Origin: Piscinibacter sp.
GTDB taxonomy: Bacteria; Pseudomonadota; Gammaproteobacteria; Burkholderiales; Burkholderiaceae_C
DNA length: 64,000 nt
Direction of reading: 5' to 3'
Assembly: GCA_017983795.1 (NCBI GenBank)
Contig: JAGOAS010000004.1
Coordinates: forward strand, 142,002-206,001
The notes under the pieces were generated by a model. That model saw nothing but the letters and a program-made list of their open reading frames with translations, had not been told where the DNA came from and made no database searches. The number at the start of each line of letters is the position of its first letter. Position 1 is the stretch's first letter. Shown piece after piece: positions 58,835-64,000 of this stretch. The position numbers were made by a program, and so were the translations under genes.

Positions 58835-59353
58835 ATGCCCCGCTTTGCATCCCTGCTCCTGGCCGGCGTGGCGCTGGCCGGCTGCTCGCCGGCGCTGGAC
58901 TGGCGCGAGTTCCAGCCCGAAGGCAGCGGCGTGCTGGCGAGTTTCCCGTGCAAGCCGGATCGCCATTCGCGCACCGTGAAGCTCGAGGTGCAGGCGGTGC
59001 GCATGGAGATGCTGGTGTGCGATGCCGGCGATGCGAAATTCGCGCTGGCCTTCTTCGACGTGGCCGAGCCGGGCCAGGTCGGCGCGGCGCTGGCCGAGCT
59101 GCAAGCGCTGGCGGCCGGCAACATCGGCGCGCAGAGTGCCGATGCGCAGCCGGCCGCCGTGCCCGGCATGACGCCCAATCCCAAGGCCATGCGCCTGCGT
59201 CTCGAGGGGCGCCAGCCCGACGGCACGACGGTGCAGGAGCAGGCCGTGTTCTTCGCCAAGGGCCTGCGCGTCTACCAGGCGATGGTGCTCGGACGCCGCG
59301 TGGGCGCCGAGGCGGCCGACACCTTCCTCGGCGGCCTGCGCCTGCCGGTATGA
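58835..59353 (+). CDS. Small lipoprotein of unknown function
   Basis: A 172-residue protein with a lipoprotein signal (LLLAGVALAGCSPAL, lipobox LAGC with Cys17). The mature part has two further Cys (FPCKPD and MLVCDAG) and ends FLGGLRLPV. No family was recognised. It is probably anchored to the inner or outer membrane, and the stop overlaps the transporter start (ATGA). Confidence 0.78.
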   Translation: MPRFASLLLAGVALAGCSPALDWREFQPEGSGVLASFPCKPDRHSRTVKLEVQAVRMEMLVCDAGDAKFALAFFDVAEPGQVGAALAELQALAAGNIGAQSADAQPAAVPGMTPNPKAMRLRLEGRQPDGTTVQEQAVFFAKGLRVYQAMVLGRRVGAEAADTFLGGLRLPV

Positions 59354-61041
59354 GTTCGCCGATCCCGGTCTTCCTCAGCTTCGCGTTCGCGTACTTCTTC
59401 TCGGCGCTGGTGCGCGCCGTCACCGCGACGCTGGCGCCGGCCTTCGGTGCCGAGCTGGGGTTGTCGTCCGGCGATCTGGGCCTGCTCGCCGGCGCCTACT
59501 TTCTCGGCTTCGCGCTCACGCAGCTGCCGCTCGGCCGCGCGCTCGACCGCCACGGGCCGCGTCGCGTCATCCTCGTGCTGATGTCGCTCGCGGTGATCGG
59601 CTGCTGCGCCTTCGCCTCGGCGCGGCACTTCGCGACGCTCACGCTGGCCCGCGCACTGATCGGCGTCGGGCTCAGCGCCTGCCTGATGGCGCCCCTGACG
59701 GCCTACCGGCGCAGCTTCGACCCGGTGGCGCAGCTGCGCGCCAATTCGTGGATGCTGGTCGCCGGTTCGCTGGGCATGGTGGCGTCGACGCTGCCGGTGC
59801 AGTGGCTGCTGCCGGTGCTCGGCTGGCGCGGCCTGTTCTGGGCGATCGCGGCGCTGCTGGCCGTGGCGATGCTGGCAATCCGGCTGCTGGTGCCGACCGA
59901 TGCACCGGCGGCGGCGAGCGCGCCCGGCGAACCCGGCGGTTATGCGGCGATCTGGCGGCACGGTGTGTTCAGGCGCTTCGCACCGCTCGCCTTCTTCCAC
60001 TACGGCGGCATGCTCGCCGTGCAGACCCTGTGGGCCGGCCCCTGGCTGGTGCGGGTGTGCGGCTGGACGCCCGAGCACGCCGCGGCCGGGCTGTTCGCCA
60101 TCAACGTGTCGATGCTGCTGGCCTTTCTCGCCTGGGGCTTCGTGGTGCCGCGCCTGTACCGCCATGGCTGGCCCGCGCAGCGGCTGGTGCGCTGGGGCGT
60201 GCCGCTCAGCCTCGGCGTGCTCGTGGCTGGCCTGCTGCTGGGCGAGCGTGCGACGGCGCCGCTGTGGGCGCTGTTCTGCGTGAGCTGCTCGGTGGTGTCG
60301 CTCACACAGCCTGCGGTCGGCCAGGCCATGCCCGCGGCGCAGGCGGGCCGCGCCTTGTCGGCCTACAACCTGCTGATCTTCGCCGGCATCTTCGTGCTGC
60401 AGTGGGGGCTCGGCCTGGTGATCGATGCGCTCTCGGCCGCCGGCTGGTCGACCGTGTCGGCGTTCCGGGGCGCGATGGCGTTGTGGGGTGTGTGTGCGCT
60501 GCTGGCCTACCTGTGGTTTTTGCGGCACGAGGCGCCGGCCGAAGCGGCGCCCGAGGTCGTCGCAGCGGCAGCCACCCATAATCCACGTTCCATGGCCGGA
60601 CTGCTGATCATTGCCCACGCGCCTCTGGCGTCATCGCTGAAGGCCGTCGCGAGCCACGCCTTCCCGGACTGCGGAGCGCGCCTGGAGGTGCTCGACGTGG
60701 CGCCCGACATGTCGCCCGAGCAGATCGAGAACCAGGCCCGCGAACTGCTGGAGCGCGTGCGCGGCCCCGAGGCCCTGATCTTCACCGACGTCTTCGGCGC
60801 CACGCCCTGCAACGTCGCGCAGCGGTTGGCCGATGGCGTGCAGGTCAAGGTGGTGGCGGGCGTCAACGTGCCGATGCTGTGGCGTTCGCTGTGCTACGCC
60901 GACGAGCCGATCGACGCGCTGGTCGCGCGGGCCATGGCCGGCGCCACTCAGGGCGTGATGCAGGTGGCCACTTCGCGGCCGCAGAACCAGACCTACAAAC
61001 CGGGCGGAAATGATCAAGACCACCGTCACCATCAGCAATAG
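59350..61041 (+). CDS. MFS transporter fused in frame to a mannose-type PTS EIIA domain
   Basis: A single uninterrupted frame of 563 residues. Residues 1-395 are a 12-helix major facilitator (GLLAGAYFLGFALTQLPLGR with the RALDRHGPRR loop between helices 2 and 3). An Ala/Pro-rich linker (about 396-414) leads into EIIA-Man: LLIIAHAPLASSLKAV with the phospho-His, ALIFTDVFGATPCNVAQR and VVAGVNVPMLWRSL. HPr and enzyme I genes follow, so the EIIA could be phosphorylated and regulate the transporter, as EIIA-Glc does in LacS. Separate internal translation of EIIA from 60592 is also possible. Confidence 0.7.
   Translation: MSSPIPVFLSFAFAYFFSALVRAVTATLAPAFGAELGLSSGDLGLLAGAYFLGFALTQLPLGRALDRHGPRRVILVLMSLAVIGCCAFASARHFATLTLARALIGVGLSACLMAPLTAYRRSFDPVAQLRANSWMLVAGSLGMVASTLPVQWLLPVLGWRGLFWAIAALLAVAMLAIRLLVPTDAPAAASAPGEPGGYAAIWRHGVFRRFAPLAFFHYGGMLAVQTLWAGPWLVRVCGWTPEHAAAGLFAINVSMLLAFLAWGFVVPRLYRHGWPAQRLVRWGVPLSLGVLVAGLLLGERATAPLWALFCVSCSVVSLTQPAVGQAMPAAQAGRALSAYNLLIFAGIFVLQWGLGLVIDALSAAGWSTVSAFRGAMALWGVCALLAYLWFLRHEAPAEAAPEVVAAAATHNPRSMAGLLIIAHAPLASSLKAVASHAFPDCGARLEVLDVAPDMSPEQIENQARELLERVRGPEALIFTDVFGATPCNVAQRLADGVQVKVVAGVNVPMLWRSLCYADEPIDALVARAMAGATQGVMQVATSRPQNQTYKPGGNDQDHRHHQQ
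60592..61041 (+). CDS. PTS EIIA component (mannose type), possible internal start
   Basis: ATG at 60592 opens MAGLLIIAHAPLASSLKAVA, the usual N-terminus of stand-alone EIIA-Man homologues in Burkholderiales, 149 residues long. A CATAAT -10-like box lies at 60577-60582, nine bases before it, but no ribosome site is evident. If used, the MFS and EIIA would be made separately as well as fused. Its 3' end overlaps ptsH by 32 bases. Confidence 0.55.
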   Translation: MAGLLIIAHAPLASSLKAVASHAFPDCGARLEVLDVAPDMSPEQIENQARELLERVRGPEALIFTDVFGATPCNVAQRLADGVQVKVVAGVNVPMLWRSLCYADEPIDALVARAMAGATQGVMQVATSRPQNQTYKPGGNDQDHRHHQQ

Positions 61042-61279
61042 GCTGGGGCTGCATGCCCGGGCATCCGCCAAGCTCACCAAGCTGGCCGGCAGCTTCAAGA
61101 GCGAAGTGTTCATGAGCCGCAACGGCCGGCGCGTGAACGCCAAGAGCATCATGGGCGTGATGATGCTGGCCGCCGGGCTGGGCAGCGAGGTCGAGCTCGA
61201 GACCGCGGGGCCGGATGAGCAGCAAGCGGCCGACGCCATCGCGGCGTTGATCAACGACAAGTTCGGCGAAGGCGAATAG
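61010..61279 (+). CDS. ptsH: Phosphocarrier protein HPr
   Basis: An 89-residue HPr with the phospho-His in NRLGLHARASAKL (His15) and the regulatory Ser region VNAKSIMGVMML. It carries phosphate from enzyme I to EIIA. No EIIB or EIIC is present, so the block resembles the incomplete, regulatory PTS of betaproteobacteria rather than a sugar-uptake system. It overlaps the EIIA coding region by 32 bases. Confidence 0.96.
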   Translation: MIKTTVTISNRLGLHARASAKLTKLAGSFKSEVFMSRNGRRVNAKSIMGVMMLAAGLGSEVELETAGPDEQQAADAIAALINDKFGEGE

Positions 61280-61340
61280 CCGGCGCACGCCTACAAGAAC
61301 TACGGATGGCGCCGCCGGCCCGAAGGGCTAGCATGGCGCC

Positions 61341-63101
61341 ATGAGCTTCCAGGTCATCGGTCTGCCTGTCTCGCGCGGCGTGGCCATCGGGCGCGCCGTG
61401 CTGGTGGCGTCGTCGCGCGTCGACGTCGCGCACTACTTCATCGACGAGAGCCGCGTGGAATCCGAGATCGCGCGGCTGCGCCTGGCGCGCGACGCCGTCG
61501 CCGGCGAGCTGAGCCTGCTCAAGCGCGACCTGCCCGCCGAGGCGCCGGCGGAACTCTCGGCGCTGCTGGACGTGCACCTGATGCTGCTGCACGACGACGC
61601 GCTGACCGGTGCGACCAAACAATGGATCGTCGAGCGGCACTACAACGCCGAGTGGGCGCTTTCGGCCCAGCTCGAGGTGCTGGCGCGCCAGTTCGACGAG
61701 ATGGAGGATGAGTACCTGCGCGAGCGCAAGGCCGATCTCGAGCAGGTCGTCGAGCGCATGCTGCGCGCGCTGGCGCACGGGCCCGGGGCCTCGTTCGCCG
61801 CGGCGCCGGCCGTGCGCGCACGCGACTTCGCCGGCGAGGATCCGCTCGTGCTGGTGGCCAACGACATCGCGCCGGCGGACATGCTGCACTTCAAGGGCGG
61901 CGTGTTCACCGGCTTCGTCACCGACGTCGGCGGCCGCACATCGCACACCGCGATCGTGGCGCGCAGCATGGACATCCCGGCCGTGGTCGGCGCGCGCGAG
62001 GCGAGCCGCATCATCCGCCAGGACGACTGGGTCATCATCGACGGCGACAACGGGCTGGTGATCGTCAACCCGTCGCCGATCGTCCTGGAGGAATACCGCT
62101 TCCGGCAGCGCCAGGCCGAGCTCGAGCGCGAGCGGCTCTCGCGGCTGCGGCACACGCCGGCCGTGACGCTGGACGGCGAACGCATCGAACTGCTGGCAAA
62201 CATCGAGCTGCCCGAGGATGCCTCGGCCGCGCTGGAGGCCGGGGCGGTCGGCGTGGGCCTGTTCCGCAGCGAATTCCTCTTCATGAACCGCGGTGGCGAG
62301 CTGCCCGGCGAAGACGAGCAGTTCGAGGCCTACCGGGCCGCGGTGGAGGCCATGAACGGCTTGCCGGTGACGATCCGCACGGTCGACATCGGTGCGGACA
62401 AGCCGCTGGATCGCATGTCCGTGAACGAGCTGCGCCACGAGCACGCGCTGAACCCGGCGCTGGGCTTGCGGGCGATCCGCTGGAGCCTGTCGGAGCCGGG
62501 CATGTTCCGCCAGCAACTGCGGGCCATCCTGCGGGCCAGCGCCTACGGCAAGGTGCGCCTGCTCATCCCCATGGTTGCCCACCTCAGCGAGGTGAAGCTG
62601 ACGCTCGATGCGCTGGCACGCGCCAAGCAGCAGCTGACCGACGCCGGTCGGCCGTACGTCGACGTCGAGGTCGGGGCGATGATCGAGGTGCCCGCGGCGG
62701 CGCTGATGCTGCCGGTGTTCCTGCGCTACTTCGACTTCGTCTCCATCGGCACCAACGACCTGATCCAGTACACGCTGGCGATCGATCGCGCCGACGAGTC
62801 CGTCGCGCATCTCTACGATCCCTGGCATCCGGCGGTGCTGGCGCTCGTTGCCGGCACCATCCGCCAGGCTGGTGAGGCCGGCAAGCACGTCAGCGTGTGC
62901 GGGGAGATGGCCGGTGACCCGGCGTTCACCGAGCTGCTGCTGGGCATGGGGCTGCGCAGCTTCTCGATGCATCCCGCGCAGATCGCCGCCATCAAGCAGC
63001 GCGTGCTGCGCGCCGACACGCGCCGCTGCGTCGTTCGTGCGACGAGCCTGCTCGAGGCGGAGGACCCGCGTGATCAGGGCGTCCGGTTGGTCGCCGGTTG
63101 A
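61341..63101 (+). CDS. ptsI: PTS enzyme I (PEP-protein phosphotransferase)
   Basis: A 586-residue enzyme. The phospho-His is in VGGRTSHTAIVARSMDIP, the PEP-binding core includes GLFRSEFLFMNRGG and the catalytic Cys is in VSVCGEMAGDP. It transfers phosphate from PEP to HPr. Its stop codon overlaps the -35 box of an rRNA promoter (63098-63103). It is the last protein gene before the rRNA operon. Confidence 0.97.
   Translation: MSFQVIGLPVSRGVAIGRAVLVASSRVDVAHYFIDESRVESEIARLRLARDAVAGELSLLKRDLPAEAPAELSALLDVHLMLLHDDALTGATKQWIVERHYNAEWALSAQLEVLARQFDEMEDEYLRERKADLEQVVERMLRALAHGPGASFAAAPAVRARDFAGEDPLVLVANDIAPADMLHFKGGVFTGFVTDVGGRTSHTAIVARSMDIPAVVGAREASRIIRQDDWVIIDGDNGLVIVNPSPIVLEEYRFRQRQAELERERLSRLRHTPAVTLDGERIELLANIELPEDASAALEAGAVGVGLFRSEFLFMNRGGELPGEDEQFEAYRAAVEAMNGLPVTIRTVDIGADKPLDRMSVNELRHEHALNPALGLRAIRWSLSEPGMFRQQLRAILRASAYGKVRLLIPMVAHLSEVKLTLDALARAKQQLTDAGRPYVDVEVGAMIEVPAAALMLPVFLRYFDFVSIGTNDLIQYTLAIDRADESVAHLYDPWHPAVLALVAGTIRQAGEAGKHVSVCGEMAGDPAFTELLLGMGLRSFSMHPAQIAAIKQRVLRADTRRCVVRATSLLEAEDPRDQGVRLVAG

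Positions 63102-63408: not shown

Positions 63409-64000
<592 letters not shown>

Follow-up and report, generated by a model that had tools for sequence, protein, structure and literature searches.

The 64,000-nucleotide stretch of Piscinibacter sp. DNA analysed here (the window; the genes and signals described from 58835 to 63101 are on the + strand) contains an open frame in which an MFS transporter runs directly into a mannose-type EIIA domain. Comparison of this junction with those of relatives makes it highly probable that the locus is a ptsMHI operon preceded by an MFS gene that has lost its stop codon, and that EIIA is separately started. By this explanation, an ordinary regulatory operon encoding EIIA-Man, HPr and enzyme I would lie behind an optional MFS gene; in the species represented by the window a sense codon would have replaced the MFS stop and, because the downstream EIIA gene shared that frame and no other stop intervened, the two genes would have become one open frame. 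EIIA would be transcribed from a -10 element at 60577-60582 and translated from the ATG at 60592 on a nearly leaderless mRNA, and the free 16-kDa product would be phosphorylated by way of enzyme I and HPr and act as a regulator. Transcripts arriving from upstream of the MFS gene would also give some 60-kDa MFS-EIIA protein, probably of minor consequence. Since the relatives examined keep the genes apart and EIIA has a conserved start signal of its own, the joining looks like a recent accident and not like a regulated transporter of a new, established type. Free EIIA is probably still made, and the 60-kDa product is plausible as a by-product because nothing in the frame would stop it.

The open frame and its two domains

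The frame extends from the ATG at 59350 to the TAG at 61041, 563 codons without an internal stop, and translation together with Pfam searches confirmed the initial annotation in its description of an uninterrupted frame encoding an MFS protein and then EIIA-Man. Codons 1-414 (59350-60591) comprise the MFS part with its tail and linker; MFS_1 (PF07690), the sole Pfam match in the membrane part, covers residues 12-349 (model positions 2-345 of 347, E 3.6e-34). Codons 415-563 (60592-61041) correspond to the 149-aa EIIA-Man protein (PtsM), and EIIA-man (PF03610) matches residues 417-526 of the fused frame (model positions 1-113 of 116, E 3.5e-15). The Ala/Pro-rich linker, described previously as about 20 residues in length, separates Met415 from the last MFS helix by approximately 22 residues. 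Computed masses are 59.8 kDa for the whole fused product and 16.0 kDa for EIIA alone. The MFS part had also been described as a complete 12-helix protein. The near-full coverage of the MFS_1 model agrees with completeness, but a hydropathy scan of the fused product returned 15 segments that overlap, including one within EIIA, and did not resolve 12 helices, so that completeness of this part rests on Pfam and homologue coverage.

The same frame is in fact open for 737 codons, extending back across the upstream gene at 58835-59353, and openness by itself is thus weak evidence for a fusion in this DNA. Values of dN/dS for EIIA were 0.10/0.76, 0.07/0.61 and 0.11/0.61 against three genomes of the same genus (G005, G001 and G006, respectively), and those for MFS were 0.21/0.85, 0.22/0.73 (355 codons only) and 0.26/0.74 against the same genomes. 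Both halves are under constraint, as is expected whether they are fused or separate.

The ptsMHI genes

The genes that follow are those for HPr (PtsH, 61010-61279; TIGR01003 and PF00381), whose start overlaps the EIIA end by 32 nt, and enzyme I (PtsI, 61341-63101; TIGR01417 over its cut-off, and Pfam), as had been reported. EIIA-Man, HPr and enzyme I are therefore adjacent in the order of a ptsMHI operon, and no EIIB or EIIC was present among the neighbouring genes looked at. His9 and His22 of EIIA are invariant in 28 aligned sequences, that of the window included, and two PDB alignments begin only at residue 34; by analogy with ManX, His9 would be the phosphorylated residue. A search of the window's genome detected an HPr kinase gene and a single EIIA-man match. 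The likely role of EIIA-Man, HPr and enzyme I is a regulatory phosphorelay.

Three side observations concern this region. Many relatives share the EIIA tail NDQDHRHHQQ (61010-61041); the HPr start, which uses these bases in a different frame, may be the reason. A possible -10 element, TAGCAT (61329-61334), precedes the ATG of enzyme I at a distance of exactly 6 nt, and relatives have TAGGAT, TACAGT or TAAAGT at about this place, so enzyme I may have a leaderless promoter of its own. By eye, the window and its contig end after ptsI in an apparent 16S rRNA gene (63415-64000).

An optional MFS gene upstream of ptsM

Upstream of the MFS gene is a small gene of 172 aa (58835-59353) that has no Pfam match and was judged lipoprotein-like by eye from its N-terminus; its stop and the MFS start share 4 nt. 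We examined junctions upstream of EIIA at 150 loci with a recognisable EIIA start, of which 140 distinct ones were kept after removal of identical sequences and of those with less than 60 nt upstream; loci in which no EIIA start could be recognised (L032), or that carry no EIIA (such as L031), fall outside these counts. An MFS gene lies directly upstream of EIIA in 74 junctions and is absent from 66. A homologue of the lipoprotein-like gene directly precedes MFS in 67 of the 74, and directly precedes EIIA in 57 of the 66. Present in some junctions and absent from others, the MFS gene has the distribution of an optional insert that sits between the conserved lipoprotein-like gene and ptsM, and the MFS and EIIA pair is not a unit. 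In three MFS-less loci of the same genus (L006, L007 and L008), a TGTGG/GGTGGTTTT stretch upstream of EIIA aligns with the MFS gene end of others; a deleted MFS gene may have left it behind.

The MFS stop codon in relatives

The genus search covered 8 genomes, including that of the window. In G005 (75% identity) and G001 (77%), MFS and EIIA share a frame and are separated by a TGA, and in G006 a TGA follows the MFS gene and EIIA is in a different frame. The MFS gene of G001 is split over two frames near residue 62-64, and may be broken or badly sequenced. Three further genomes, G007, G002 and G003, keep EIIA and have no MFS gene; the match to the upstream gene ends 135, 109 and 109 nt, respectively, before EIIA, which is too little space for an MFS gene. 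The remaining genome, G004, given as 96% complete, yielded no EIIA match in this search, through either loss or a gap.

Wider searches gave the same picture. Among 399 genomes of the family, all 22 other matches listed that begin no later than residue 10 and reach at least residue 540 contain one stop or more; among 399 genomes of the order, which overlap partly with the family set and were searched at E 1e-60, two further spanning matches were listed (G005 and G152), each with a stop. No stop-free match running from MFS into EIIA, other than the window's, was found among the matches listed for the 399 family and 399 order genomes, nor was a conserved fusion found in the genus, relatives, family and order searches. 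Literature searches for an MFS-EIIA fusion and for a leaderless ptsH gave no report of this arrangement among the papers listed. In a genome of another family (G500), an 860-codon open frame around EIIA was considered and attributed to chance; the preceding gene is a glutathione synthetase that ends at the EIIA start.

Only one of the 74 MFS-bearing junctions, that of the window, is fused. Of the other 73, MFS shares the frame of EIIA in 30, and in 25 a single stop stands between the genes, although the sample is non-random, many family-search loci having been chosen through one match spanning both genes in one frame, and both the same-frame and the one-stop shares are inflated because such spanning matches were preferentially delivered as loci. 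Among junctions of this kind, a single loss of a stop calls for no particular explanation. Where G005 and G006 have the MFS stop TGA, the aligned codon of the window's frame is GCA (codon 407, 60568-60570). The tail that forms the linker is conserved between relatives in neither length nor sequence.

These comparisons bear on whether the genes might be separate in the real genome, the stop having been removed by an error of sequencing or assembly. That the species is represented by one genome, and that the relatives examined have a stop, would be in keeping with such an error. However, TGA and GCA are two bases apart and the adjacent codons also differ, which makes a single miscall unlikely, and the genome is given as 99.73% complete with 0.01% contamination. 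We regard an error of either kind as very unlikely.

They bear likewise on the proposal, made in the initial annotation, of a transporter controlled by the PTS, in which HPr would phosphorylate the fused EIIA and so alter transport in the manner of LacS, beside free EIIA. The uninterrupted frame with both domains, the conservation of EIIA His9, the adjacent HPr and enzyme I genes and the excess of dS over dN in both halves are all compatible with this proposal, and LacS exemplifies the principle (PMC10710835). Yet 73 of 74 MFS-bearing junctions are unfused, three genomes of the same genus have EIIA and no MFS gene, the linker-forming tail is unconserved, and EIIA retains its own start and upstream hexamer. 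We consider a functional MFS-EIIA(Man) transporter improbable; LacS-like control of the MFS protein is possible but unsupported. A stop after the MFS gene in relatives had itself been named as an observation that would refute the fusion, and it is what the comparison revealed. There is likewise a small chance that the frame is a newborn gene with two outputs, namely a membrane MFS-EIIA(Man) protein whose transport would be set by HPr, and free EIIA from a nearly leaderless internal promoter.

The EIIA start and its upstream hexamer

Met1 of EIIA is invariant in the 28 aligned sequences, and GTG starts occur in two cases in a wider set. The window has CATAAT (60577-60582) 9 nt before the ATG at 60592, and we predict that this is the -10 element of the EIIA gene from the conservation of NATAAT upstream of EIIA: the hexamer occurs 5-25 nt before the EIIA ATG in 100 of the 140 junctions (73 of them at 5-11 nt), including 50/74 with MFS present and 50/66 with MFS absent. 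By comparison, it was found at 0/139 HPr starts and 0/113 enzyme I starts, and at 1/111 first-ATG ORFs of at least 150 codons in the window, a set of mechanically called ORFs rather than of genes. Among the 40 junctions without NATAAT at 5-25 nt, 21 carry TA...T at 6-8 nt (TAAACT in most cases, many of them from Hydrogenophaga), 2 carry it at 19-25 nt and 17 have neither. A looser pattern, NATAAT or TAVVVT at 5-11 nt, was present at 90/140 EIIA, 39/113 enzyme I and 0/139 HPr starts; either this pattern is less specific, or enzyme I may have a similar signal.

Shine-Dalgarno-like 4-mers were present at 2/140 EIIA starts, 10/139 HPr starts and 60/113 enzyme I starts. The EIIA start of the window resembles that of a leaderless gene, in that a -10-like hexamer directly precedes the start codon and there is no Shine-Dalgarno sequence. 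A transcript start near 60589 is predicted, which would give a 3-nt leader and a nearly leaderless mRNA. The first base of the hexamer is G or C, where T is usual, in 73 aligned cases; no clear -35 motif was seen when 73 junctions were aligned on the hexamer. A strict sigma-70 promoter scan of 60300-61400 found no promoter, and no terminators were found in the same interval. In other families, the short-leader arrangement looked less regular (27 loci, L186-L212, by eye, uncounted). In the aggregate, the junction comparison and the conserved EIIA start and hexamer favour the simpler reading offered at the outset, in which the stop was lost by chance and EIIA is also started at 60592.

Discussion

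The locus illustrates the caution that, in GC-rich genomes, one lost stop codon can mimic a new multidomain protein and conceal a real ptsM start. How these bacteria express their regulatory PTS is a question on which the conserved near-leaderless signal in front of ptsM offers something testable. Were the two-output reading true, the loss of one stop codon would have just wired a transporter to the PTS.

The LacS precedent cited in the initial annotation holds as a principle but serves as an analogy only. In LacS, the EIIA-type domain is C-terminal. LacS of streptococci and lactobacilli belongs to the GPH family and carries an EIIA-Glc-like domain that HPr can phosphorylate (PMC10710835). It resembles the window's frame in being a transporter that carries an EIIA-type domain, whereas the latter joins MFS_1 to EIIA-Man. 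The window's frame thus has neither a GPH-family part nor an EIIA-Glc-type domain, and with 1/74 junctions fused it is not a stable, conserved transporter-EIIA fusion.

The predicted EIIA start has its likenesses among mapped leaderless genes. The -10 consensus mapped in Burkholderia cenocepacia is TAnAAT, and the leaderless genes of this species have the motif directly upstream (PMC4603805); in Cupriavidus metallidurans, leaderless transcripts account for 4.67% of primary starts (PMC7563307); and a ptsH is listed among leaderless genes in PMC3160421. As described in PMC4603805 and PMC7563307, the leaderless genes of the first two organisms resemble window EIIA in having a TA-rich -10 motif, and not a Shine-Dalgarno sequence, directly ahead of the start codon. 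Their transcript starts were mapped, whereas that of the window is predicted from conservation, and its hexamer class begins with G or C.

The closest known counterpart of the operon itself is in Ralstonia eutropha (Cupriavidus necator) H16, for which a putative ptsMHI operon with a proposed regulatory role has been described (PMC3222305). HPr and enzyme I beside EIIA-Man, with no EIIB or EIIC, constitute that known putative operon, and the arrangement in the window is therefore of an already known kind. The gene order, EIIA-Man, HPr and enzyme I, is the same in the two organisms; they differ in that an upstream MFS gene is joined in frame in the window, and no such gene is mentioned for H16 in the excerpts of PMC3222305 used here.
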